A DNA stretch of 64,000 nt, from contig JAPPGG010000066.1 of the NCBI GenBank assembly GCA_028875055.1, positions 62,001-126,000 on the forward strand, written 5' to 3'. Below are positions 14,652 through 58,932 of the stretch, piece by piece (position 1 is the stretch's first letter; every line of letters starts with the position of its first letter). Source of the stretch: Chloroflexota bacterium. Its GTDB lineage: Bacteria > Chloroflexota > Dehalococcoidia > Lucifugimonadales > UBA3495. The position numbers were made by a program, and so were the translations under genes. Below the pieces are notes generated by a model. It saw only the letters and a list, made by a program, of their open reading frames with translations. It was not told the DNA's origin and did not search any database.

Positions 14652-15740
14652 ATGCTGAGACCTCACATTTTTTGCAAGAGATTTGGACCAACTCTGACTT
14701 TCTTGTCATTAGCTATTCCCGTTTTGACCCTGGCGCTGCCGGCCTGCGGGCCTTCGGACGAAGAACTGGCCCAACTTATTGACCAGCGGGCTCGGGCTAT
14801 TGTTGATGCCGTGCCCACCGCAACTCCGCAGGCGATTCCCACGCCCCAGCCGACGGCCACGCCCCAGCCCACGGCTACGCGGATGCCGGAGCCTACCCTC
14901 GTTCCCACCGCGACGTTGTTGCCGACCGTTACCGCCGCGCCAACCGCCACTGTTATTCCGCCGGCTACACCGCAGCCGACGGCGACACCGGTAGTTTTTC
15001 CACCCACGGCTACACCGGCACCCACGCCTACGCCGGTCACTTTCCCGCCCACGGCCACGCCGGTCACGATCCCCAACACACCTACGCCCCAGCCCACAGC
15101 CACCCCCCAGCCGGTAACCGACTTCCGGGCCATCCACCAGCACGCCTGGCCATCAGTCTTCATGATAGATACCAGGTTCAGCCGCGGCTCGGGTTGGCTG
15201 ATCGAGCCCAACCTGATAATCACCAACGAGCACGTGGTTGATAACAACCGCACCGTCACGGTCCGCCAGGCCGAGGAGCCGGAATTCACCGCCTCGGTCC
15301 TGGCCGTGGACAGGGAGAGGGACCTGGCATTGATAAGGTTTGACCCGGAGAAAGAGCCTTTGAGCAGCCGCGCCTCCCCGCTGCCGCTGGGGAATGTGCC
15401 CCAACAGGATATAGCCCAGGAACTGATGGCCCTTGGATACTCCACGGTCTTCCCCCGGGACGACGGCACCGTAGGAGCAGCCTCACCCAACCGAGGTGTG
15501 CTGTCCCAGGTGGTTTACATTGACGACGACCGGGAAGTCCGCAATCTCTTGATGGACGTGCCGGTGGACCCGGGCGACAGCGGCGGCCCTGTCTTTAACA
15601 GTGAAGGCCAGGTGATTGGACTGGTGCGGGCAGCCCAGACCCAGGCCGGCGGCAAGAGGGTTATAGGCACTTTCTTTGCCGTACATGTGGACGAAATCAG
15701 GGAGGCCCTTCCGGACCTCAAGCAGGGAAGATCAAGGTAG
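14652..15740 (+). CDS. Second S1C-type serine protease lipoprotein with Pro-Thr linker
   Basis: A 362-residue sibling of the preceding protease. Signal peptide with lipobox LPAC (Cys32), Pro-Thr spacer at about 55-154 with repeated FPPTATP units, then a compact trypsin-like domain with H194 (TNEHVVD), D224 (RDLALIRF) and S310 (PGDSGGPV). It has no PDZ and lacks the extra C-terminal domain of its neighbour. The active-site sequence (GDSGGP) is of the chymotrypsin/HtrA type. Located outside the membrane if processed. The two protease domains differ greatly although the anchors are almost the same. Confidence 0.88.
   Translation: MLRPHIFCKRFGPTLTFLSLAIPVLTLALPACGPSDEELAQLIDQRARAIVDAVPTATPQAIPTPQPTATPQPTATRMPEPTLVPTATLLPTVTAAPTATVIPPATPQPTATPVVFPPTATPAPTPTPVTFPPTATPVTIPNTPTPQPTATPQPVTDFRAIHQHAWPSVFMIDTRFSRGSGWLIEPNLIITNEHVVDNNRTVTVRQAEEPEFTASVLAVDRERDLALIRFDPEKEPLSSRASPLPLGNVPQQDIAQELMALGYSTVFPRDDGTVGAASPNRGVLSQVVYIDDDREVRNLLMDVPVDPGDSGGPVFNSEGQVIGLVRAAQTQAGGKRVIGTFFAVHVDEIREALPDLKQGRSR
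14726..14893 (+). repeat. Anchor cassette copy 2 (lipobox and linker)
   Basis: Direct repeat of 13370-13537, gap-free over 168 bases, encoding the lipobox, the PSDEELAQLIDQRARAIVDA segment and the start of the linker. Confidence 0.85.
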
Positions 15741-15847
15741 CTCAGGCCCGCGGCGAGAGCCGTGAAGGGAGATTCCCTACTGTACGAGGAAGACGGGGCG
15801 AAAGAGTATTCACTACTGAAATTAACCATCAACAGGCTATTATTTAT

Positions 15848-15876
15848 TTGTTTGGCACAAGTACTGCTGATATAAT
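15848..15876 (+). promoter_or_regulatory. Promoter for the VOC gene at 15929
   Basis: -35 TTGTTT (15848-15853), 17-bp spacer, perfect -10 TATAAT (15871-15876), in a locally AT-rich stretch; predicted start near 15883. Confidence 0.6.
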
Positions 15877-15928
15877 CGCGAAAATACACCATAAACAATC
15901 CTGAATTGTCGGAAAAGGGAGGCAAGTT

Positions 15929-16429
15929 ATGGGATACACGCCACGACAACTGGGCCACGTGAACATCTACGTACGCAACGCGGAGCGAGCCAGGGACTGG
16001 TATGAAGACCTGCTGGGCCTGCATACCCAGGGCTTCACGCCGGGGCGCGCCGCCTTCATGAGCGCGGACGTCGGAAATTCCCACGAAATCGCCCTGGTGG
16101 AAGTGGGGGAAGACGCCGCCGGGCCACAGAGGGGCCAGGTTGGCCTCAACCACATGGCGTGGTACATGCACAGCCTGGAAGACCTGGCGGAGTTGTACCA
16201 ACGGGTGAAGGAGAAGAACATCCCCATAGAGAGGGTTTCGGACCACGGCCATGCCATCGGCATCTACATTCGAGACATGGACGGAAACGGCATTGAGCTT
16301 TCCTACGAGATGCCGGCCAGTGAATGGGGCCACGACCCCAGCGGATACATGATTGGGAGCACCAGCAAGGGCCGCCTCTCCGGTCCCTGGGACGAGGAAC
16401 TGGCGCGGCAGGCTCAGGCCACCGCATAA
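15929..16429 (+). CDS. VOC-family protein, catechol 2,3-dioxygenase-like
   Basis: A 166-residue vicinal-oxygen-chelate protein. The first unit starts LGHVNIYVRNAERARDWYEDLLGL with His9 as a likely metal ligand, the second has GLNHMAWYM (His) and GIYIRDMDGNGIELSYE with a terminal Glu, the spacing seen in one-domain extradiol dioxygenase-like enzymes. GGGAGG is placed 7 nt before the ATG. The C-terminal 35 residues are an extra tail. Substrate unknown. Confidence 0.88.
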   Translation: MGYTPRQLGHVNIYVRNAERARDWYEDLLGLHTQGFTPGRAAFMSADVGNSHEIALVEVGEDAAGPQRGQVGLNHMAWYMHSLEDLAELYQRVKEKNIPIERVSDHGHAIGIYIRDMDGNGIELSYEMPASEWGHDPSGYMIGSTSKGRLSGPWDEELARQAQATA

Positions 16430-16526
16430 CCGAGGGTATTTGCTTCTCATGCGGGTCTGCCTAAAGCTATAGGAATCAATATACCGAATTCATACCGGCG
16501 CAATAGCCGGTCTGGAGGTTGAGGGA

Positions 16527-17495
16527 ATGTCAGGAAATTACAGCATAATGGTTGGAACTACGGGCGCGGGTTTGTTCCATAGCGCCGATTCCGGGGAGAG
16601 CTGGCGCCGGGTGGGCAGCCCCTTTCCCGGAGAGTCACAGGTGCGGGCGCTGGCCGTCGACCCCAACAATGCCAGCGTCGTTTATGCGGGAGCGGAAAAC
16701 GGTTTCTACCGCAGCGAGGACTCGGGCATGAACTGGGCCAGACTGGACTCGCCCATGGAAGGACTGAAGATCTGGTCCATCGCCGTGGACCCGGCCAACT
16801 CACAGAACATTTACGTGGGCACAAGTCCCCCGTTCCTGTTTCGGAGCCGGGATGGCGGCCAAAACTGGGAAAAGTTAGCGGCCGACATAGCGCAGGAATG
16901 TGCCATCGGCGACCCTCGGGTCACGGCCCTGCTGGTGGACCCGGTTGACACCAACACAGTACTGGCCGGTGTGGAGATTGACGGCGTTTATGTCAGCCGG
17001 GACGGCGGCGACACCTGGAGTCACGTTGACCAGGGCATAACCAATCCCGACATTCACGGGATGGCGTTCAGCCTGGGCGAGGAAAAGACCGTGCTGGTCA
17101 GCACGCCACGGGAAATCTTCGCCAGCCGGGACGACGGGGCAACGTTTGAGTCCCTGATGTCTTCATCTTCACTGGAGATGCCCTACTGCCGCTGGGTAGC
17201 CGTCAAGGCCGACGACCCGCATGTAATGTTCGTGGCCAACGGCGACGCCGCCATCGGCAACACGGGGACCATCCGCCGCTCCAGTGACGGAGGGCAGTCA
17301 TGGGAGGAGCGTCCGCTGCCGGTGGAACCCAACTCACCAGTGTGGAACTTTGCCACCAATCCCGCGGACCCCGACCTGATTCTGGCCAACAGTGTTTACG
17401 GAGAACTGTATCGCAGCGAAGACGGCGGGGAAAACTGGAGCAAGCTCAAGAAGGAGTTCACGGAAGTGCGGGCGCTGGCCTGGACGCCAAATTAG
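16527..17495 (+). CDS. BNR/Asp-box beta-propeller protein
   Basis: A 322-residue protein built of repeated Asp-box motifs (S-x-D-x-G-x-x-W): HSADSGESW, RSEDSGMNW, RSRDGGQNW, VSRDGGDTW, SRDDGATF, RSSDGGQSW and RSEDGGENW. Each repeat is followed by VDPxNxxxVYAG. This is a sialidase / photosystem-assembly-like propeller fold. No sialidase Arg triad or FRIP motif and no signal peptide is seen, so it is probably a binding scaffold rather than a glycosidase. GGAGG lies upstream of the ATG. A terminator follows at 17524. Confidence 0.85.
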   Translation: MSGNYSIMVGTTGAGLFHSADSGESWRRVGSPFPGESQVRALAVDPNNASVVYAGAENGFYRSEDSGMNWARLDSPMEGLKIWSIAVDPANSQNIYVGTSPPFLFRSRDGGQNWEKLAADIAQECAIGDPRVTALLVDPVDTNTVLAGVEIDGVYVSRDGGDTWSHVDQGITNPDIHGMAFSLGEEKTVLVSTPREIFASRDDGATFESLMSSSSLEMPYCRWVAVKADDPHVMFVANGDAAIGNTGTIRRSSDGGQSWEERPLPVEPNSPVWNFATNPADPDLILANSVYGELYRSEDGGENWSKLKKEFTEVRALAWTPN

Positions 17496-17523
17496 ACGAA
17501 GTATAGGCAGGTGAACGATAAGC

Positions 17524-17557
17524 ATTGCCCGCCTGAGAAATCCGGCGGGCAATTTTT
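17524..17557 (+). terminator. Intrinsic terminator after the propeller gene
   Basis: 10-bp perfect stem ATTGCCCGCC / GGCGGGCAAT with a 10-nt loop followed by a T run. Confidence 0.88.
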
Positions 17558-17587
17558 ACAGGGGCGACAGACCCGCTTGGTCGCGCT

Positions 17588-17616
17588 TTAGACAGGCGGG
17601 CGATTTGGTATATAAT
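17588..17616 (+). promoter_or_regulatory. Promoter upstream of miaB leader
   Basis: Perfect -10 TATAAT (17611-17616) with a weak -35 TTAGAC at 17-bp spacing. Predicted start near 17623, leaving a leader of about 145 nt before miaB. Confidence 0.55.
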
Positions 17617-17639
17617 GTGCGCAAGGCGCTCCCGTGAGC

Positions 17640-17743
17640 CCGGGCCTTGGTTCCAGGTTCTGAAGAACAGAATCTTTCCCCCTAAAGGGAGTGGCCCGGT
17701 TTTCTGATGAATCTATTCCGCCCGGCATCAGTGGATGCCGGGC
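17640..17743 (+). ncRNA. Structured leader RNA upstream of miaB (unknown class)
   Basis: The leader can fold as a three-way junction: closing stem CCGGGCC (17640-17646) with GGCCCGG (17693-17699), inner hairpin GGTTCTG / CAGAATC (17656-17674) and inner hairpin TCCC / GGGA (17677-17690). The closing stem is followed by TTTTCTG. A separate perfect 10-bp hairpin, GCCCGGCATC / GATGCCGGGC, is at 17720-17743, 25 nt before the start codon. This could be an attenuator, a riboswitch or a small RNA. I do not recognise a known class. Confidence 0.4.
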
Positions 17744-17768
17744 AAGTTGACTAGAGAAGCGGTTTAAA

Positions 17769-19100
17769 TTGCTGGATACCTACTACATATGGACCATTGG
17801 ATGCCAGATGAACAAGGCCGACTCCGAACGATTGGGGTCAGCCCTGGAACAGCTTGGGCTCCAGGCGGTGGATACTGCCAAAAAGGCTGACGTAATTGTC
17901 CTGAATTCCTGTGTCGTCCGGCAGGGAGCCGAAAACAAGGTTGTAGGCAACCTGTGGATGGTGAATCCCCTCAAGAAGAAGCAACCCGACCGGGTTTTGG
18001 CCCTGATGGGGTGCATGGTGGGGCCGCGCACCGAGGAGCTGGAGAAACGGTTCCCCGACGTTGACCTGTTTATGCAGCCACAGCAGTTTGAGCCATTGCT
18101 GGAACTGGTGGGGCAGCGCAAGGGTCTGGACTGGGAAGGGTGTGTCGGCTCGCTGGCGCCCACCCATCCGGATGTCACCTGCTACGTGCCCATCATCCAC
18201 GGCTGCGACCTGATGTGCACCTTTTGTATTATTCCCTATCGGAGGGGGCGCCAGGTCAGCCGGCCGGTAGATGAAGTGGTCCGCGAAGTTGAACTGCTGG
18301 TCAATCGGGGAGTGCGGGAAGTAACGGTTCTGGGCCAGACTGTGGACGCCTACGGGTATGACCTGCCGGAGAAGCCGGACCTGTCTCAGCTTCTAACCTG
18401 TCTGAACGATATCGATGGCCTGGACCGCATCCGTTTTCTCACGTCTCATCCATCGTACATGGATGAGCGGATAATCAGATCGGTTTCCGAACTTCCCAAA
18501 GTCTGCGAGCATATAAACCTGCCGGTCCAGGCGGGGGATGATGAGGTTCTGAGGAATATGCGGCGCCCCTACACCCGGGACGAGTACCGGGACCTGGTCG
18601 GCCGCATTCGGGACACCATCCCCGGGGTTTCGATGAGCACCGACATTATTGTGGGGTTCCCGGGTGAAACTGAGGAGCAGTTTGGCAGGACCATGGACCT
18701 GGTTTCCGAGTTGCGGTTCGACAAGGTGCACTGCGCTGCCTACTCCACCCGCCCCGGAACCACCGCCCACCGCACCATGGAGGACGATGTAACGGCGGAG
18801 GTCAAGGACCGCCGGATGAAGGAACTGGACGCCCTGCAGGAGAACATACTGCGTGAAACCAATGCGGAACTGGTAGGACAGACCATGGAGGTGCTGGTGG
18901 AAGGCCGGAAGCGGGGCAAATGGCAGGGCCGTACCCGTACCGACAAGCTCGTGTTCCTAACCGAAGATGATGAGTCTGGCTGCGCCACCGACCTGGCAGG
19001 CCAACTGGTGCAGGTCGGTATCGAGCATGCCAGCCCGTGGGCGCTGCAGGGAAAGGTCCATTTGCCGGTTGGATTGAATCAGGCCGCCAACACGGAATAG
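17769..19100 (+). CDS. miaB: tRNA-2-methylthio-N6-dimethylallyladenosine synthase
   Basis: A 443-residue radical-SAM methylthiotransferase that adds the 2-methylthio group to i6A37 in tRNA. N-terminal UPF0004 cluster Cys12, Cys48 and Cys82; radical-SAM motif CxxxCxxC at C146, C150 and C153 (HGCDLMCTFCIIPYRRG); STDIIVGFPGET; and a C-terminal TRAM region (about 365-435). The PYRRGRQVSRP signature favours MiaB over RimO or MtaB. It starts with TTG, with GAGAAGCGG upstream. Its long structured leader suggests control at the RNA level. No miaA is in the window. Confidence 0.93.
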   Translation: MLDTYYIWTIGCQMNKADSERLGSALEQLGLQAVDTAKKADVIVLNSCVVRQGAENKVVGNLWMVNPLKKKQPDRVLALMGCMVGPRTEELEKRFPDVDLFMQPQQFEPLLELVGQRKGLDWEGCVGSLAPTHPDVTCYVPIIHGCDLMCTFCIIPYRRGRQVSRPVDEVVREVELLVNRGVREVTVLGQTVDAYGYDLPEKPDLSQLLTCLNDIDGLDRIRFLTSHPSYMDERIIRSVSELPKVCEHINLPVQAGDDEVLRNMRRPYTRDEYRDLVGRIRDTIPGVSMSTDIIVGFPGETEEQFGRTMDLVSELRFDKVHCAAYSTRPGTTAHRTMEDDVTAEVKDRRMKELDALQENILRETNAELVGQTMEVLVEGRKRGKWQGRTRTDKLVFLTEDDESGCATDLAGQLVQVGIEHASPWALQGKVHLPVGLNQAANTE

Positions 19101-29927: not shown

Positions 29928-29990
29928 GAATATCACAAAACGTTAACTCAAACCGCCGATCCAAATCGTTTGTCAAGAGTGCCGGCAGCT

Positions 29991-32018
29991 ATGACTACAA
30001 CAGAAGCAAATGTCACCACTTATCCGCTGGGCCTGCCGGAAGAGCTCGTTCTGACGCTCCTGAATGAAGAGAACGGGTACTTTCACCAGGTGCCAGGATG
30101 GGACTTGAACTGCGCCATCATTGGCGCCGTGCTGGCCGAACTTTCCCTGCAGTCCCGCATAGACACTGACATGACGTCACTGTTCCTGCTGGACCAGACC
30201 GAGACCGGCAATCCCGCCCTGGACAATACCCTGAAGGAAATAGCGAACGAACCAACCCGGCGAAACGCCCAGTACTGGATAGAGCGGCTCGCTCCCCAGG
30301 CAGAGCATGTAATCGACCTGACGCTTGACAGGTTGGTCGAAATGAGGATTCTCGAGTACCACGACGGGGAGTTTTGGACCATGGCCCGAAACCCCGGCAG
30401 CGCCGACTTGTTTGCCGGCCTTTCCGACGTTTCCGGGTTCCAGTTTGTGAAGACGCGAATCAGCAATGCAATCTTCAACAACGAAATCCCTGACCCCAGG
30501 GACAGCATCATAATATGCCTGGTAAATGCTTGCGATGTATTCCGGTTTATGTTCCAGCTGGACGATGAGGCGGAGGAGCGCATTGCCTTTCTCTGCAACC
30601 TGGACTTGATCGGTCGCTCCATCGCCGCTGCAGTTTCCCAGAACATTGCCGGGGCGCTGTTCAGGCGGTCGGCGCTGGCCAAGAGGATTCCAACAGTGTC
30701 TCTGGGCAGACTTATCCTCAATCCTCACTTGCGGGACGGAAACGTTCCGGCGCTGCTGGCGGACCTGGCGAAGGAGTACGGTCCGGTCTTTCAAATTAGG
30801 CCTCCCTTCTCCAAACCGATGATTTTCATCGCCGGGCCCGACGCCAACCAGTGGGTGCACCGTCGCGGCCGTATGTACCTGAGAACCAAGGACTACTTCA
30901 GCGATTTCGAAAGGGTCTATGGGGCCAGCGGAGTCTTGCCTTCGCTGGACGGCGCAGACCATTTCCGGCTTCGGAAGTCCCTTTCAGCCGCCTATTCCCG
31001 AGGCAGACTGGCGGGCCAACTGGACCAGGTCTATTTCCAGGCCAGGAAGTTTATGTCCGAATGGGAGACAGGGGAGTCCTATCCCGCCAGGAATCTTTGC
31101 CGGCAGATGATCAATGCCCAGCTCTCGCGCCTCTTCGTCAGCGTTGAATCACAGGACATCTTTGACGACTTATCAATATACAAGGAAAGGGCTCTGGTCA
31201 CCCATGTGATAAAGGCGCTTCCCAAATTCATGCTGAAGACACCGGGAATGCGTCGGCGAGCCAAGACCGTGGATGTTCTTCTTGATCGCGTGCAAGGGGT
31301 ACACACCCCTGCCCAGCGGGCGGACAGCCCCAGGGACCTGGCCGACGACATTCTGAGCCTTCATGCCAGCGATCCCCAGTTTGTGCCAGAGTCGAACCTG
31401 CGATTTGCCCTGGCTGCGGCACTGATTGCCAGCGTGTACCTGGGGGACGCATTCAGCTTTACGCTGTACGCCATGGCCTCTCAACCTGAACTATATGAAA
31501 GGATTCAGGCCGAGGCTGACGCCCTGTTTGCGAATGGAGACCCCAGCGGAGACGACCTGAATCCTTCAACCATCGACGTCACACACCGCTTTCTGATGGA
31601 GTGCCTGCGGATGTACCCCATCGTTCCCGTGTCCATCCGCAACGTGATGAACTCCTGCGTGGTTGAGGACTTTGAACTGCCGGTGGGGACACGCTTGTAC
31701 ATTGCCCAGACAGCCTCCCATTTTATGGAGGATGTTTTTCCCGAGCCTACCAAGTTTGACATTGACCGGTACCTGCCACCCCGAAACGAACATCTCAGCC
31801 CCGGATATGCGCCCTACGGACTGGGCACTCATACCTGCCTTGGCTCGAGGTGGATGGAGTTGCAGTTGGCGTTGAACGTTTTGATGGTGGCCCATTACTT
31901 CAACATCAAGGTCTCTCCGAACGATTACAAGCTCAAGTACAGCCCAATACCATCGATGAAACCGAACAAGAAGCTGAAATTCCTGATCGCCGAGAAGAGG
32001 CACGAGCTGAAATTCTGA
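29991..32018 (+). CDS. GPP34 (GOLPH3-like) domain fused to a cytochrome P450
   Basis: A 675-residue protein. Residues about 15-225 match the pattern of the GPP34/GOLPH3 family (LPEELVLTLLNEENG, AIIGAVLAELSLQSRID, GNPALDNTLKEIA, LTLDRLVEMRILEYHDGEFW, PDPRDSIIICLVNACDV), a membrane phosphoinositide-binding fold in eukaryotes. Residues about 230-675 are a P450: MECLRMYP (ExxR) and PYGLGTHTCLGSR with heme-ligand Cys616. The I-helix reads IASVYLGDAFSF where AGxETT is expected, so the acid-alcohol pair used for O2 activation is absent. No transmembrane segment is seen, so GPP34 may dock the enzyme to membrane lipid. Start at 29991 or TTG 29970; neither has a clear ribosome site. Convergent with an RND exporter. 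Confidence 0.85.
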   Translation: MTTTEANVTTYPLGLPEELVLTLLNEENGYFHQVPGWDLNCAIIGAVLAELSLQSRIDTDMTSLFLLDQTETGNPALDNTLKEIANEPTRRNAQYWIERLAPQAEHVIDLTLDRLVEMRILEYHDGEFWTMARNPGSADLFAGLSDVSGFQFVKTRISNAIFNNEIPDPRDSIIICLVNACDVFRFMFQLDDEAEERIAFLCNLDLIGRSIAAAVSQNIAGALFRRSALAKRIPTVSLGRLILNPHLRDGNVPALLADLAKEYGPVFQIRPPFSKPMIFIAGPDANQWVHRRGRMYLRTKDYFSDFERVYGASGVLPSLDGADHFRLRKSLSAAYSRGRLAGQLDQVYFQARKFMSEWETGESYPARNLCRQMINAQLSRLFVSVESQDIFDDLSIYKERALVTHVIKALPKFMLKTPGMRRRAKTVDVLLDRVQGVHTPAQRADSPRDLADDILSLHASDPQFVPESNLRFALAAALIASVYLGDAFSFTLYAMASQPELYERIQAEADALFANGDPSGDDLNPSTIDVTHRFLMECLRMYPIVPVSIRNVMNSCVVEDFELPVGTRLYIAQTASHFMEDVFPEPTKFDIDRYLPPRNEHLSPGYAPYGLGTHTCLGSRWMELQLALNVLMVAHYFNIKVSPNDYKLKYSPIPSMKPNKKLKFLIAEKRHELKF

Positions 32019-32177: not shown

Positions 32178-34658
32178 TCAGGCCCCCTGATTCTCCTCCT
32201 CGTGGCGGGCGTGCACGGCTTCGATATGCATGTCCAGCTCGTCTGACCAGCGCTGAACCATGGAGCGCAGCCGCATGTTCTGATAGGCGCCCCAGAAGGT
32301 CATGGCGGCTGGCACCACGATGATGGAGACCAGCAACGAGTAGGCGATGGTTATCGCCGCGGTGAAGCCAAACTGCTGTGAGGCAGCCAGCGGAGACGCC
32401 ACCAGGACGCCAAGTCCCAACGCCGTAGTAAGCGCTGAGCCCAGCAGGGCTGAGCCTGTCGTACCCAGTGTCCGGACCGCCGCCCGCTCGGGGTCGCGAG
32501 TGTGCGAGTATTCTTCCCGGTAGCGATGGATCATATGGATGGTGTAATCAACACCGATGCCAATGGATAGCGCCGTGATGATTGAAGTTATGATCGTATA
32601 GGGAATGCCCAGCAACGCCATTGTTCCCAACACGGCGATAAGCACCAGGACGATCGGCCCTACCGCGATTACGGCCAGGGCCGGCTGGCGCAGTGTAATC
32701 CAGAAGAAAATTGCCAGAACCGCCAGGGCCGCAATGATGGTAGTGGTAATCGCCTCGGTCTGGCGTTCGGTAATTGCGTCGGTGACGGTGACGGAGATAA
32801 TGCTTCCGGAGGTGGCCGTCAAGTCCTCGTCTCTGCCAAACCACAAACCCTCCAGCTCCTCCTGGAGGACTTTTGTCCTGGAGGGTTCTCCCGAGAAGGT
32901 CGGGAATTGCAGCAGCAATGTATCGACGCCTTCGGGATTGTTGACCACAATCCTCCGGAACTCGGGATCCAGGGCCTCCAGTTTATCCACAAATTGCTGC
33001 ATCAAGACGGGGTCCAGCTGAACCGACGCTGAAGCCTGGTGGAAAAGGGCCTCAAGTTCGGGGGCGTACTTGTCTCCCGGCAGGCCACTATCCTGGGTCC
33101 AGTCGTGCGCCAGCAAGTCAAAGGACGAATGGATGGGACCCGCCGCCGCTTGAGGCCGCTGCCGTTCGTCTTCAAAGGCAGAGGTAAAGTCCTGAAGGTT
33201 CAGGAGCGTCCGGGTTTCGGTGATCTCTGCCTTCAACAGGACTGTGGCCATCTCAGTAGAGCCGCCGACGGCCGCGTCCAGGCTGTCCATATCCCGGAGC
33301 AACTCGCCGTTCCTGGGAAGAATATCGCGAATACTGAATTCGGACTCCAGGCCCGTGGCGGCGTAGCCCAGGCCAGCCGTCAACAAGAGCACTCCACCCA
33401 GATATGGGCCCGGGGCGCGGGTTATGCTCCTCCCCAATAGTTCTGCGAGCTTTCCAATACCGGGCAGCGCATTGGCAATGGGATTGGGAGGCTTCAGTGT
33501 CCCTCGCCTCTCCCTTCTACGATCTATGATGGTTCGTCCGGCGGGGATCAGGGTCAACATCACGACCAGGCTCATGCCAACGCCCAACCCGGCAATTATT
33601 CCGAAATCACCAACAATTTCTATGGGGGAGAACAGGTTGGCCAGCATGCTCACTATTGTCGTGACGGCAGCCAGCACCAGGGGAACGGTTACGTTTCTCA
33701 GTCCCAGGCGAACAGACTGCACCACCGACTCACCGGAGTTACGCTGCTCTCGATAGTGAGAGACAATCTGGATGGCGTAGTCCACCGTGAGACCAATCAC
33801 GATGATGGGCACCATTGTGGTGAGGGAATTGGGCGGCCCAGTCAGGCCCAGCGCTTTGGGCCCCAGCCAGCCCTCGGCTCCGACAATCCAGACTATGGAC
33901 ATCAGCAGGCCGGCCAGGGTAAGCAGCAGATCTGAGATAGTGCGCATGAACAGCAGGATCAGCGCCGCAATCAAGAGGAAGGCCAGCCCCACCAGAGGCG
34001 CCATACCTTCCTCGGTGGCCTTCTTGTATGCGTCCTCAATGATCACCGGGGAAACGGTGCTGACCGTTAACGGGCCCTGGCTGCCACGAACCAGTTGATC
34101 GATATTTCTTTCGACAGTTGCCAGTCGCTCGTCGCCCGTGTCCTGCAGGCGGATTGTGGCGATGGAGACGGGGGTTGTGCCATCCGTATCTATGCCCGTC
34201 AGGGCAGCCAGGGCGCCCATAATTTCGGGAGGGCCCTGGGCTGCGTCGATATCAGCCTGAGTGACACTTTCGAAGCTTCCTGTCTGAAGCAAGACCTTGT
34301 AAAGGTCCGAGGGAGCGACCACCGGATTGACGGGAGCGAGCAGGGCCTGCGCGTCGGGGTCTGAGAGCACTTTGTTGATCAGCGAGTCCATCTGGGCCAG
34401 CCCTTCCGGCGTCAGGGCATTGCCCCGGAACAGCAGGGTTACAACGCTGGCCTCGCCGGACTCGCGGAAACTCTGCTTAATCTCCTGCAATGCCAGTGCG
34501 ACGGCGCTCCCCTGCGGAAGGGTCGCCGCCGTGTCGGGAGGAGGAACCCTTTGGGTGGCGCCAGCGCCCAGAAGCACGGTGATCAGGAGGAGAATTAGAA
34601 TTGTTACGAAGGGCCTTGCCGTAACCAGCCAACTTAGCCAACCTAGAACCTTGTTCAT
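32178..34658 (-). CDS. RND-superfamily exporter (MMPL/HpnN-like)
   Basis: An 826-residue integral membrane protein in two homologous halves. Each half has one TM helix (residues about 15-35 and 418-440), a large extracytoplasmic domain, and a block of five TM helices with sterol-sensing-like spacing (about 220-375 and 640-800). The motif TVDYAIQIVSHYREQ in half one is mirrored by GVDYTIHMIHRYREE in half two, typical of the MMPL/HpnN branch, which exports lipids such as mycolates, hopanoids or carotenoids. No partner membrane-fusion protein is adjacent. AAAGG lies upstream of the ATG. Lipid cargo is an inference, helped by the P450 and Rieske genes on either side. Confidence 0.9.
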   Translation of the reverse strand: MNKVLGWLSWLVTARPFVTILILLLITVLLGAGATQRVPPPDTAATLPQGSAVALALQEIKQSFRESGEASVVTLLFRGNALTPEGLAQMDSLINKVLSDPDAQALLAPVNPVVAPSDLYKVLLQTGSFESVTQADIDAAQGPPEIMGALAALTGIDTDGTTPVSIATIRLQDTGDERLATVERNIDQLVRGSQGPLTVSTVSPVIIEDAYKKATEEGMAPLVGLAFLLIAALILLFMRTISDLLLTLAGLLMSIVWIVGAEGWLGPKALGLTGPPNSLTTMVPIIVIGLTVDYAIQIVSHYREQRNSGESVVQSVRLGLRNVTVPLVLAAVTTIVSMLANLFSPIEIVGDFGIIAGLGVGMSLVVMLTLIPAGRTIIDRRRERRGTLKPPNPIANALPGIGKLAELLGRSITRAPGPYLGGVLLLTAGLGYAATGLESEFSIRDILPRNGELLRDMDSLDAAVGGSTEMATVLLKAEITETRTLLNLQDFTSAFEDERQRPQAAAGPIHSSFDLLAHDWTQDSGLPGDKYAPELEALFHQASASVQLDPVLMQQFVDKLEALDPEFRRIVVNNPEGVDTLLLQFPTFSGEPSRTKVLQEELEGLWFGRDEDLTATSGSIISVTVTDAITERQTEAITTTIIAALAVLAIFFWITLRQPALAVIAVGPIVLVLIAVLGTMALLGIPYTIITSIITALSIGIGVDYTIHMIHRYREEYSHTRDPERAAVRTLGTTGSALLGSALTTALGLGVLVASPLAASQQFGFTAAITIAYSLLVSIIVVPAAMTFWGAYQNMRLRSMVQRWSDELDMHIEAVHARHEEENQGA

Positions 34659-34893: not shown

Positions 34894-35955
34894 CTAAACC
34901 GTGGAGATTTCCTCTGCTGCCGGAGCCTCGTCCACGGCCTCAACCGGGCTGGGATAGAACTGGGCGCAATAGGCCCGGAAAGGCATTATTTCACCATCGG
35001 ACCGGCACAGGCGCGGACGGGACCGGTACTGCTTGCGACGCCAGATAACCACATCCTGCAAGACATCATGCTTTTGCATGGCGGCGACAAACTTGTTGAC
35101 CAGGGGCGCACGCATTCTGACGGGAAGCAACCCCAGGGCGGAAGCTCGCCGACGGGTCTGTCGAATCTCCTCCACCTGCGAAGCCAGCGACATGTCAATG
35201 AGCGTTCCATCCACGGGCGTGGCCATTACCCAGAGCCGCATATTCATCCCAATGGAGTGTTCCCGTATTTCCACATAGGAATAGCCCAGACCGAAAATCC
35301 GGGTACTGGCGGAAATGTCCATAGTAACCGGGATGAATTTGCCCACGGTGCGGCGGGTCTTGAAATCAAAGTCACTTACCAGCAGCGGTCCGTCAACGGA
35401 GACAGAGCCCACCCGCGCCACGCTGTCATAGCCGTGCACGTACCGCAGGTGAGCCAAATCCACTGAATTTTCCGTGGTTTCCTGGGGATGGCCGGGAAAT
35501 CTCAGCGTGTTTATTTCCAGGCCCGTCCACCCGGCCTGGTCGGGCTCTTGACGCGGCAGTTCCCACTGGGGCTCACGTCCCTCAATGCCCCACCAGGCGA
35601 AAATCAGGCCGGCGATGTCACGAGTTTCAAATACCCCCAGCCTGGCATTCCTAGGAGGAACCGCATAGGGAGTAGCGACACACTGCCCCGTGGTATCGTA
35701 CTCGAAGCCGTGGAAAGGACATACCAGCCTGCCGTCGCAAACCCGGCCACCCGTCTCCGGACCCAGGTCGGAACCCAGGTGGGGACAAACAGCCTCGGCC
35801 ACGCAAACATTGCCCTCCTGGTCGCACCAGGCAACGATGCTTTCACCCATCCAGGTCTTTTGGAGGAGGCCGGCTCTTTGGACCGCCTTGCGGCTGGCGA
35901 CGAAATACCAGCCTTCGGGAAAGGGGGAGGGCAGCGGCCGATTTGCACTTCTCAT
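34894..35955 (-). CDS. Rieske [2Fe-2S] non-heme iron oxygenase, alpha subunit
   Basis: A 353-residue oxygenase. The Rieske cluster ligands are C57-P-H59 and C79-x-x-H82; the mononuclear iron site is ENSVDLAHLRYVH with D166, H169 and H174. The compact form without a beta subunit and the ENxxDxxHxxxxH pattern resemble 3-ketosteroid 9-alpha-hydroxylase KshA and the cholesterol desaturase DAF-36/Neverland group, so a sterol-like substrate is plausible. No reductase gene is nearby. ATG at 35955 is preferred (CGGAG upstream); the longer frame to 36015 has no site. Confidence 0.88.
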   Translation of the reverse strand: MRSANRPLPSPFPEGWYFVASRKAVQRAGLLQKTWMGESIVAWCDQEGNVCVAEAVCPHLGSDLGPETGGRVCDGRLVCPFHGFEYDTTGQCVATPYAVPPRNARLGVFETRDIAGLIFAWWGIEGREPQWELPRQEPDQAGWTGLEINTLRFPGHPQETTENSVDLAHLRYVHGYDSVARVGSVSVDGPLLVSDFDFKTRRTVGKFIPVTMDISASTRIFGLGYSYVEIREHSIGMNMRLWVMATPVDGTLIDMSLASQVEEIRQTRRRASALGLLPVRMRAPLVNKFVAAMQKHDVLQDVVIWRRKQYRSRPRLCRSDGEIMPFRAYCAQFYPSPVEAVDEAPAAEEISTV

Positions 35956-36015
35956 AGATTGGGACTCCGGATGGAAGTGACTGGTCAGACAGGAGTATTC
36001 GGTGCAAAGGGGCAC

Positions 36016-55396: not shown

Positions 55397-57151
55397 TTAA
55401 CCCCGGCCTGCGCCAGAGGGCGCCTCCAGCCCGAACAGGCCGAAAAGCTCCCTGGCGGTAAGGACCGAGGAGAGGTCGATGGACACATCATCCACCAACT
55501 CGTCGAACAGCTCCTGCTTTCGCTCCAGGATACGGTCAATCCGCTCCTCAATGGTATTGACGCAGGAATACTTGAACACATGCACCGGTACAGTCTGGCC
55601 AAAGCGGTGGCTGCGGTCCTCGGCCTGACGTTCCACCGCCGGATTCCACCAGCGGTCCAGGTGGAAAACATAGGAGGCCTCCTGGAGGTTCAGACCCACC
55701 CCGCCGGCCCGCAGCGACACCACCAGTACCTTGTGCTCGTCATTCCCCCGGAACCTGTCGATGACATCCCGACGCTCTTCAGGAGACTGGGCGCCGGTGA
55801 AGGTCAGGGGTCGAAAGTCGCGCAGCGCATCGGCCACCGCCTCCACGCCGAAGCCCGACGCCCGGTACTGGGAAAAAACCAAAGCCCGGTTTCCTTCTGC
55901 CGCCAGGGTCTCAATCCTGCCGCGAATCTCCTCGAACTTGGCGGACTCGCCGGTTTCGGGCTCGGCGTTGCAAATCTGCTTCAGGCGGGTTATAAGTTCC
56001 AGTACATGCTGAACCCTGACCTCGCGGCCCAATTCCGTGAGGTGGACGATGCCTTCTTGTTCCGCCCGGTCATAGCTGCGACGCTGTGAAGCTCCCAACT
56101 CGACCGGAATTTTGGCCACCATCTTGGGAGGCAAATCTTCCAGCACTTCCTCTTTCCTCCTCCGCAACTGCAACTCTCGGTGCCGCTTCCTCAGAACAGG
56201 TCCGGCCGAGTACCTCCTGGGACTCTCCGCCTCTCCGTGGTCAACGAACTCCATGATGGAGGCCAATTCCTCCTCGTCATTCTCGACAGGAGTACCCGTC
56301 AGCGCCCACGAGCGCCGGCGCTTGAGGCCTTTAACCGCGTCGCTGGTGGAATTGCGGTTCTTTATGCGCTGGGCCTCATCGGAAACCACCACGTCCCAGG
56401 TCTTGCGGCCAAGGGCGGAGGAGGGACTGCCGCCGAAGTCGGAGCGCAGGGTATCGTAGCTGACCAGGGTTACGTGCACCGGGGTATCCCACTGCCACCT
56501 CCGGTCTGCGGCGGACCCGCGAACGATCATGGCCGTCAGGTCGGGCGCCCACTTCAGCAGCTCGCGCCGCCACTGGTCCAGGACGCTGGCCGGGGCGACC
56601 ACCAAGGCCGACTGGATTTCACCCCCCAGGAAGAGGACCCGGAGGGCCACGATTACCTGCAGGGTCTTGCCAAGGCCCATATCATCAGCCAGCAGGATGC
56701 GATCACTCTCCAAAAGGACCTGAACGCCCTCCTCCTGGAATGGCATTAGACCTGGGCGGCTGTCGCTGTCCAGAACCGGGGGCGGCAGCAGGGGCAAATG
56801 GGGAGACTTCAACGCCCGCCGCAGCCGGAATATTAGGCTCTCCGGAGAGGGCACGCTTCTCCGGCGAGACTGCCCAGTGGTTGAAGAAGCGCCCGCCTGG
56901 GTAGCAGCGCCGACGGCAGAGGGGGCTGGGCCATCGAAGATGAAGGTCCTGACCGCTTCCGCTGCTGTCATCGGAGCAGCCGGAAGCCAGGCCACGGGTT
57001 CCGGCTGGATTTCGGAGGGTTGGTATAGGGGGAAGCCGGAGGTGTAGGGGGCAGGCGCTTCGCGAATCACCGCGCGGCTGCCTTCCTGGTGGCGCCAATT
57101 CCGGCCCAGGTTCAAGACCTTCAACTTGTGCAGCCAGGCGCGAAGCATCAT
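55397..57151 (-). CDS. SNF2-family helicase/translocase
   Basis: A 584-residue superfamily 2 ATPase. Residues 1-130 are an unmatched region with a Pro/Ala/Ser-rich part. Core: LLADDMGLGKT (Walker A, to residue 163), VVVSDEAQRIKN (DEAQ, 258-261), WALTGTPVEN (motif III), and the C-terminal lobe FSQYRASGFG, SLRAGGVGLNLQEAS, DRWWNPAVERQAEDRSHRFGQ. It would move on double-stranded DNA. No nuclease, methylase or bromo-like domain is attached. Its ATG overlaps the stop of the preceding gene (ATGA), so it is the last gene of the five-gene operon. Confidence 0.93.
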   Translation of the reverse strand: MMLRAWLHKLKVLNLGRNWRHQEGSRAVIREAPAPYTSGFPLYQPSEIQPEPVAWLPAAPMTAAEAVRTFIFDGPAPSAVGAATQAGASSTTGQSRRRSVPSPESLIFRLRRALKSPHLPLLPPPVLDSDSRPGLMPFQEEGVQVLLESDRILLADDMGLGKTLQVIVALRVLFLGGEIQSALVVAPASVLDQWRRELLKWAPDLTAMIVRGSAADRRWQWDTPVHVTLVSYDTLRSDFGGSPSSALGRKTWDVVVSDEAQRIKNRNSTSDAVKGLKRRRSWALTGTPVENDEEELASIMEFVDHGEAESPRRYSAGPVLRKRHRELQLRRRKEEVLEDLPPKMVAKIPVELGASQRRSYDRAEQEGIVHLTELGREVRVQHVLELITRLKQICNAEPETGESAKFEEIRGRIETLAAEGNRALVFSQYRASGFGVEAVADALRDFRPLTFTGAQSPEERRDVIDRFRGNDEHKVLVVSLRAGGVGLNLQEASYVFHLDRWWNPAVERQAEDRSHRFGQTVPVHVFKYSCVNTIEERIDRILERKQELFDELVDDVSIDLSSVLTARELFGLFGLEAPSGAGRG

Positions 57152-57648: not shown

Positions 57649-58932
57649 TTACTCCCCGTCCGTGCTGGAGCCGTTTTCTTCCGAGTGGGCCTTCTCCAGG
57701 GTCGTATCCTCCTCGTACCTGAAGGTCAGCTCCGTATCCTCGATTTCCGGCTCGGTTTCCGGATACAACCGTCGCAGGTCCCACTCGTTAATCCAGCGGC
57801 GGACATAGCGCCGTATGCTGGCGGGCACGCCGCGCCCCACGCCATGGTCTATTTCGGGAGCATCCCAACCGTACGCATCTGAATGAATAGTCCTGAGCTG
57901 GCGGTAGAGGTTTAACAACATTTCTTCATCAGGCTCAGCCAGGTGGCAGACTCCCCGCTCCAGAAAGCGCATTCCAGACTCGGCCCTGGCCGCGGTCAGC
58001 AGGTCTGCTTCCCGTCCCCGGGCCCGCAGGCGGGGCACAGCCTTGTCCCGGTCCTCCTTGCTGTCCAGAACTTGCTCGGGAAGGTCGGCGGTCATGGTGC
58101 CAACCACCACCAACCCCGGGTACTTTTCCTCCGGGGTTTGCCCCATCCAGCGGGCCAACTCGGCGTAGGAGCGGGCCCGTTGCAGGACGCTGTAATTGGC
58201 CACCAGTTCGATTTCGTCCAGCAGGACCACCCAGCCGCAATATCCGGCCGCCTTGATGAGTTCGAGGACGAACCGGAGCCTCTGCGGGGGCATATCCCGG
58301 TACACCGGTGCGCGGAAGGAATGGACCTGGTGCAAACCCCAGTGGCGCAGTCCATCTCGCACATTCTTGAGCTGGATGCGCTCGCCGGACCAGAACCAGT
58401 TGATCTCATTCAAAAGCTGGGGTTCATTGTCATTTTCGTGGACGGCCAGGGTGGCCGGCAGAATTCGGTGGAGGCCGTTGTCCTCCCGGTTGGCCCACTG
58501 GAAGAACTGGGCATAGCCAGGGGAGTCATAGTCCAGTTTCTGGGCAATTTCCTCCACCATCTGTCCGGTCAGGCCGGGCACTCTGCCCTTTTCCACCACG
58601 GCTCGATAGACCTTATCCATGTCGAACAGGGGCGTTTCTTTGCTGATCACCACCCGGCTGCACACGAAGTTCCGCTCCAGGGCCCGGTTCTCCAGGTAGC
58701 CCAGAAGGTGGGACTTGCCGCTGCCAAAGTCGCCGGCCACCAGCATTCCCTGGCCGCCCTCCGGACCACCTCCCTCCTCGGAGAGTCGGGTTAGCATTTC
58801 GTTGAACACGCGTTCGACCTCGGGCTGGCTGCATCCCAATGCGTCAACCGCGTCGCCGTTGGGGACGCCGTTCCGCAGGGCCTCCAGCGCCCTGCGGTTG
58901 TTTACCCTTGCGCTTGCTGTTGTAGCTGCCAT
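57649..58932 (-). CDS. BrxC/BrxD-like (DUF2791) P-loop ATPase
   Basis: A 427-residue AAA-type ATPase. It starts with RRALEALRNGVPN, the hallmark of the DUF2791 / BREX BrxD family, then GDFGSGKSH (Walker A, 67-75), WVVLLDEIE (Walker B, 235-241) and VVVGTMTAD (sensor 1, 275-283). A C-terminal Arg-rich helix (RRYVRRWINEWDLRRL) could carry a winged-helix-like element. In BREX, such ATPases work with helicases. GGAG lies 7 nt before the ATG; the preceding gene ends at the base before it (TAG-ATG). No BrxA, BrxB, PglX or PglZ is nearby. Confidence 0.88.
   Translation of the reverse strand: MAATTASARVNNRRALEALRNGVPNGDAVDALGCSQPEVERVFNEMLTRLSEEGGGPEGGQGMLVAGDFGSGKSHLLGYLENRALERNFVCSRVVISKETPLFDMDKVYRAVVEKGRVPGLTGQMVEEIAQKLDYDSPGYAQFFQWANREDNGLHRILPATLAVHENDNEPQLLNEINWFWSGERIQLKNVRDGLRHWGLHQVHSFRAPVYRDMPPQRLRFVLELIKAAGYCGWVVLLDEIELVANYSVLQRARSYAELARWMGQTPEEKYPGLVVVGTMTADLPEQVLDSKEDRDKAVPRLRARGREADLLTAARAESGMRFLERGVCHLAEPDEEMLLNLYRQLRTIHSDAYGWDAPEIDHGVGRGVPASIRRYVRRWINEWDLRRLYPETEPEIEDTELTFRYEEDTTLEKAHSEENGSSTDGE

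Follow-up and report, generated by a model that had tools for sequence, protein, structure and literature searches.

A bacterial gene joining a GOLPH3-fold domain to a non-canonical cytochrome P450 in a steroid-related gene neighbourhood

Why is a GOLPH3-like (GPP34) domain joined to a cytochrome P450 in a single bacterial gene, and what might the joint protein act on? We addressed this question for a locus in a Chloroflexota genome, within a 64,000-nucleotide stretch of DNA that is called the window here. The features of the locus are listed in Table 1; an alternative in-frame TTG start of the fusion gene is possible upstream, at position 29970. An earlier note had proposed that the GPP34 half serves as a membrane-lipid docking module for the P450. 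The reading that we favour, with a probability of about 0.6, is that the protein is a P450 of non-canonical type acting on a sterol or triterpenoid, placed by its GOLPH3-fold domain, and that it belongs to a horizontally spread steroid-modifying cassette.

Table 1. Features of the fusion locus (positions in the window)
Feature	Position	Strand	Details
GPP34-P450 fusion gene	29991..32018	+	675 aa + stop; ATG start; no internal stops
GPP34 (GOLPH3-like) domain	30033..30635	+	residues 15-215; PF05719; hmmsearch; predicted fold
Cytochrome P450 domain	30735..31976	+	residues 249-662; PF00067; predicted fold
I-helix replacement S481-D486 (SVYLGD)	31431..31448	+	clade-specific, in place of the canonical AGxDT oxygen-activation motif
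ExxR motif (E537, R540)	31599..31610	+	81/81 aligned copies
Heme-binding loop YGLGTHTCLG, ligand C616	31815..31844	+	C616 in 81/81
MMPL/RND-family transporter, sterol-sensing/Patched similarity	32178..34658	-	convergent next gene; PF03176 155 bits, PF12349 56.5 bits
Rieske oxygenase with KshA_C (steroid-type) C-terminal domain	34894..36015	-	PF19298 97.8 bits, PF00355 62 bits

The fusion of a GOLPH3-fold domain with a P450 in one bacterial gene is real, because the Pfam matches, the profile matches and the predicted folds agreed for both domains. PF05719 matched at 88.9 bits against a cut-off of 29.1 and covered positions 1-198 of the 201-position profile, which bore out the earlier placement of GPP34 at residues 15 to about 225; an HMM miss in residues 1-230 had been named as the finding that would speak against it. 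PF00067 matched at 117 bits against a cut-off of 22.8 (profile positions 19-458 of 462). The GPP34 part as a single sequence gave no match in a phmmer search of the PDB, while a profile built from GPP34 domains of both kinds, fused and stand-alone, matched human GOLPH3 (3kn1) by hmmsearch at an E value of 1.5e-11, and yeast Vps74 as well. Modelled on its own (pLDDT 84), the GPP34 part aligned to the GOLPH3 and Vps74 structures with Z scores of 17.2-19.9, the next unrelated row scoring 4.8. The whole-protein model had a pLDDT of 83 and a pTM of 0.70, and its P450 part reached Z scores of about 35 to CYP184A1, CYP46A1, CYP51 and CYP170A1. The likeness of this half to characterised sterol P450s was distant, with 14-19% identity in structural alignment.

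The single reading frame was also found in other genomes. Full-length single-ORF relatives occurred in five of 39 related genomes at 68-91% identity, with one more at 32%, and at least 80 relatives, nearly all whole-length, were found at 64-91% identity among the 84,980 species genomes scanned. Among those listed, every translated relative had an open frame except L081; the few disrupted copies were this one, G005 with a frameshift and a TAG, and L116 with one TAA, as expected from MAG errors or decay. Such stops and frameshifts are what an assembly or sequencing error joining two genes would have in its favour, but one ORF of near-equal length in at least 80 MAG records makes that explanation negligible. 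Two separate genes, or a frameshift splitting them in relatives as the earlier note had allowed for, could thus be ruled out. The dN/dS values in six close pairs were 0.05-0.23 across both halves (upper ends 0.18 for GPP34 and 0.23 for the P450), and therefore both halves are maintained by purifying selection.

The fusion is a fixed one that spans about ten phyla. By their MAG titles, the relatives belonged to Chloroflexota/SAR202, Gemmatimonadota, Nitrospirota, Latescibacterota, Pseudomonadota, Actinomycetota, Binatota, Acidobacteriota, Verrucomicrobiota and Myxococcota. These labels include a probable binning error in at least one pair, L059 and L060, which were near-identical across phyla; the cross-phylum pattern is much broader than such mislabelling explains. 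Phyla were intermixed in the fusion tree, where monophyly was rejected for Chloroflexota (AU p 6e-6) and Gemmatimonadota (2e-12), which implied horizontal spread. The viral contigs searched held no relative of the fusion, and plasmid matches were confined to the P450 half. The best of these lay in a Planktothrix plasmid cluster (L015 7313-9227, NZ_LR882940.1) with a triterpene-cyclase-like gene, a squalene/phytoene synthase, a Rieske gene and several P450 genes; one of its P450s was 29% identical to the P450 half of the fusion and was preceded by a 187-aa duplicate of a P450 N-terminus.

Many carriers of the gene were sponge symbionts. Six of the at least 80 relatives were bins of Aplysina aerophoba symbionts, in the accession series MPM/MPN; bin22, bin56, bin75, bin90 and bin129 appear in a table of PMC5649159, and the sixth, bin76, is of the same accession series. 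We read the codes RHO, COS, IRC and APA of 23 further relatives as sponge species of PMC8163846. Sponge symbionts therefore numbered at least six and probably 29 or more, counts that do not establish an exclusive tie to sponges since the sampling source of the remaining 51 listed relatives was untraced.

The likeness to GOLPH3 invites the idea that GPP34 docks the P450 on the head group of a phosphoinositide or of a different anionic lipid, as homology to the PI4P-binding GOLPH3 and Vps74 would suggest. The PI4P-binding residues of human GOLPH3, which we take to be W81, R90, R171 and R174, were compared in 81 aligned copies, namely that of the window and the 80 relatives listed; this set was used for all residue counts. 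R90, R171 and R174 aligned with I44, E105 and I108 of the fusion. In all 81 copies these positions held V/I/A/G/T, E/D and I/V respectively, and never arginine. The basic pocket has therefore been lost, with a reversed charge at one of its positions. W81 aligned at P35, two residues before W37, a tryptophan present in 80 of 81 copies. PI4P is, to our knowledge, generally absent from bacteria, and a host-derived lipid is conceivable. With its arginines missing throughout, phosphoinositide binding is unsupported; PI4P docking was rejected on the unconserved pocket, and docking on anionic head groups at large appears very improbable. The earlier view of GPP34 as a membrane-lipid docking module thus lost its phosphoinositide part. 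The domain may possibly have some other way of tethering the protein to the membrane, or it may bind a partner protein.

A link to lipids did emerge from the neighbouring genes, and it pointed to sterols. The Rieske oxygenase in the window had KshA as its closest solved structures. Across phyla, Pfam identified as recurring neighbours the KshA_C Rieske enzymes, sterol C-24 methyltransferases (SMTs) with Sterol_MT_C, an FAD amine-oxidase-type enzyme, MMPL transporters with sterol-sensing similarity, and ERG4_ERG24. In 50 well-covered loci, each of at least 18 kb, the KshA-type Rieske gene was near the fusion in 43, SMT in 33, the FAD oxidase in 32, MMPL in 24 and ERG4/24 in 11; 49 had one or more genes of the six-gene set, the exception being L045. 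The Rieske gene accompanied the fusion in ten phyla, the FAD oxidase in nine and SMT in six. As a negative control, unfused sister P450s (29-37% identical) lacked the KshA-Rieske/SMT/FAD/ERG set at their loci. Distances between partner proteins correlated with those between fusions at r 0.50-0.83, exceeding all permutations, and more weakly between phyla (0.19-0.46), which is compatible with partial co-transfer of the cassette. The substrates of the FAD oxidase and the Rieske enzyme are ones that we infer.

Nitrospirota carried a whole sterol pathway. In L041, L086 and L091 the fusion was followed by the FAD oxidase, with an ORF for squalene epoxidase and oxidosqualene cyclase alongside; a P450 and a VanA_C Rieske gene also lay beside the fusion, and ERG4/24 was present in L041. 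The epoxidase-cyclase ORFs, of about 1135-1220 aa, were at 4520-7927 in L041, 14461-17892 in L086, 14439-17849 in L091 and 15078-18740 in a fourth Nitrospirota MAG locus, L027, all on the minus strand. The L041 ORF combined squalene epoxidase (PF08491, 81.9 bits) with a cyclase of oxidosqualene type (VSDCTAE), and the DCTAE motif recurred in the other three. The P450 beside the fusion in L041 was a true CYP51, scoring 347 bits to Methylococcus CYP51 versus about 69 bits for the fusion, whose I helix also differs; a CYP51 identity of the fusion was thereby ruled out.

The source genome itself had a less complete set. In the window, only the Rieske and MMPL genes adjoined the fusion; the two SMTs and the ERG4/24 protein of this genome, which reached 72% and 76% identity with the types in the cassette, were on other contigs. 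A search of the source genome, run without a positive control, gave no FAD oxidase. Squalene epoxidase gave no match there, while two control genomes did match, and the single cyclase detected was of the hopene type (DIDDSA), its gene lying next to ones resembling HpnG and HpnH. On these grounds we rejected de novo synthesis of sterols by this bacterium. The bacterium therefore probably modifies received sterols rather than making them, a view that depends on a 98.4%-complete assembly. The hopanoid-type cluster (L142 8624-14338, G000 C62) comprised a squalene-hopene cyclase, an SDR, an HpnG-like phosphorylase and an HpnH-like radical SAM protein with DUF3463, with another P450 nearby. Elsewhere in the window, positions 57649-58932 and 55397-57151 held a BrxC/D-type ATP-binding protein beside an SNF2-type helicase, a possible phage-defence locus.

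The P450 half departed from the canonical type at the site of oxygen activation. The earlier note had described a complete P450 with ExxR and a heme cysteine; these motifs were indeed present, but the acid-Thr pair was absent. The canonical I-helix motif (AGxDT type; A/G-G-x-D/E-T) occurred in none of the 81 aligned copies. In its place S481, Y483, G485 and D486 were invariant (S-x-Y-x-G-D). The aligned more divergent members, at 53-57% identity, share the loss. The replacement includes a one-residue deletion, the gap placement being uncertain by a residue. Unfused sisters, a cyanobacterial relative and the distant fusions L130-L132 and L138 all had the canonical motif among the sequences examined, so the loss of the pair is derived. 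The distant fusions, which are about 32-36% identical, form a second GPP34-P450 subfamily whose I helix has AGxDTS (L130 7998-10004, L131 1272-3314, L132 7989-10022, L138 8486-10522); an Acyl_transf_3 gene was directly next in three of these four loci.

The loss of the pair could mean that the protein is non-catalytic. It might then be a heme-bearing binder or carrier of sterols, in which the P450 fold would hold the sterol and GPP34 would provide the link with either the MMPL transporter or the membrane, for sterol uptake or hand-over. The absence of the pair from all 81 copies and the adjoining MMPL/SSD transporters agree with such a carrier. However, there is no obvious reason for a mere binder to keep C616, ExxR and the heme loop fixed, as they are here, and the cassette contains many oxidoreductases; we regard a carrier as distinctly unlikely. 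Alternatively, the protein may be an ordinary monooxygenase for which the loss was neutral, with substrate-assisted oxygen activation, as reported for some P450s (P450eryF), and with GPP34 as a passive membrane anchor. The heme-side motifs are all intact, and the fold and family are common to canonical relatives, as this explanation would have it. Still, a one-residue deletion together with four invariant new residues across about ten phyla suggests selected new chemistry, and makes an ordinary monooxygenase unlikely.

We therefore return to a non-canonical P450 that acts on sterols or triterpenoids. The single polypeptide would combine a GOLPH3-fold domain with a P450-fold heme-thiolate domain and would be part of a steroid-modifying cassette that marine bacteria, including many sponge symbionts, have acquired by horizontal spread. 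Its P450 half would most likely act on a sterol or other triterpenoid from the cassette, the host or neighbours. The GPP34 half would probably keep the enzyme on the membrane or in contact with a partner protein, using a different surface from the PI4P pocket. With the acid-Thr pair missing clade-wide and both ExxR and the heme ligand retained throughout, altered oxygen activation or a non-monooxygenase reaction is expected. Oxygen might be activated by another group, either the invariant Tyr483/Asp486 or a hydroxyl of the substrate; otherwise the reaction might be a rearrangement, a dehydration or a peroxide-driven one.

The unusual sterols of sponges still await an account of their origin; they include 24-isopropylcholesterol, which is disputed, in its fossil form, as the oldest biomarker of animals. 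The fusion is a conserved and so far unmentioned companion of symbiont SMT genes, and it is therefore a named, testable candidate for a further sterol step. It also offers a handle on the role of bacterial GPP34 domains, and a natural experiment in P450 chemistry, in which one clade lost the acid-Thr pair that its relatives retain. We propose only tentatively that the fusion represents a new class of sterol-modifying heme-thiolate enzyme, a GOLPH3-fold domain with a P450 without the standard pair, which is shared horizontally with SMTs across about ten phyla of marine, mostly sponge-associated bacteria and helps to make or convert unusual sponge sterols. If this were true, targeting a lipid enzyme would be the first concrete role for bacterial GPP34. 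The literature found on GPP34 with P450 or bacteria consisted almost only of papers on the insecticidal 'Gpp34', and none described the fusion.

Compared with known systems, the fusion shares with GOLPH3 and Vps74 (PF05719) the whole domain and the predicted fold, but differs in being joined to a P450 and in the replacement of all three arginines. Stand-alone bacterial GPP34 proteins, such as Streptomyces SCO4440 and a copy in the source genome that is about 39% identical to the fused domain (L001), are of the same family and, unlike the fusion, have no P450. SCO4440 influences both the formation of wall-deficient cells and the composition of peptidoglycan (PMC12402492). In the parts of two reports covered here, Ircinia symbionts carry horizontally transferred steroid clusters of ERG24-CYP51-ERG7 with SMT (PMC9531527), and SMTs of symbiont clusters make 24-isopropyl sterols in vitro (PMC10070321). 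Our cassette resembles these clusters in its roughly equal range of ten sponge-symbiont phyla, its horizontal transfer and its SMT neighbour; the set of fusion, KshA Rieske and FAD oxidase is not described in those parts. Term searches gave no mention of Rieske in either text or of Golgi in PMC9531527, and neither Golgi nor GPP34 was seen mentioned in either. CYP51, including the natural CYP51-ferredoxin fusion of Methylococcus, is alike in P450 fold and steroid context and is among the closest solved structures by sequence and by fold, but the fusion lacks a CYP51-type I helix, and a separate true copy stands beside it in Nitrospirota L041. Several P450s are without the acid-Thr pair, namely CYP74, CYP5A1/8A1, CYP152 and P450eryF. 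These share with the fusion a non-canonical I helix and an intact heme thiolate, whereas its own replacement, S-x-Y-x-G-D with a deletion, is different and arose among relatives that are canonical.
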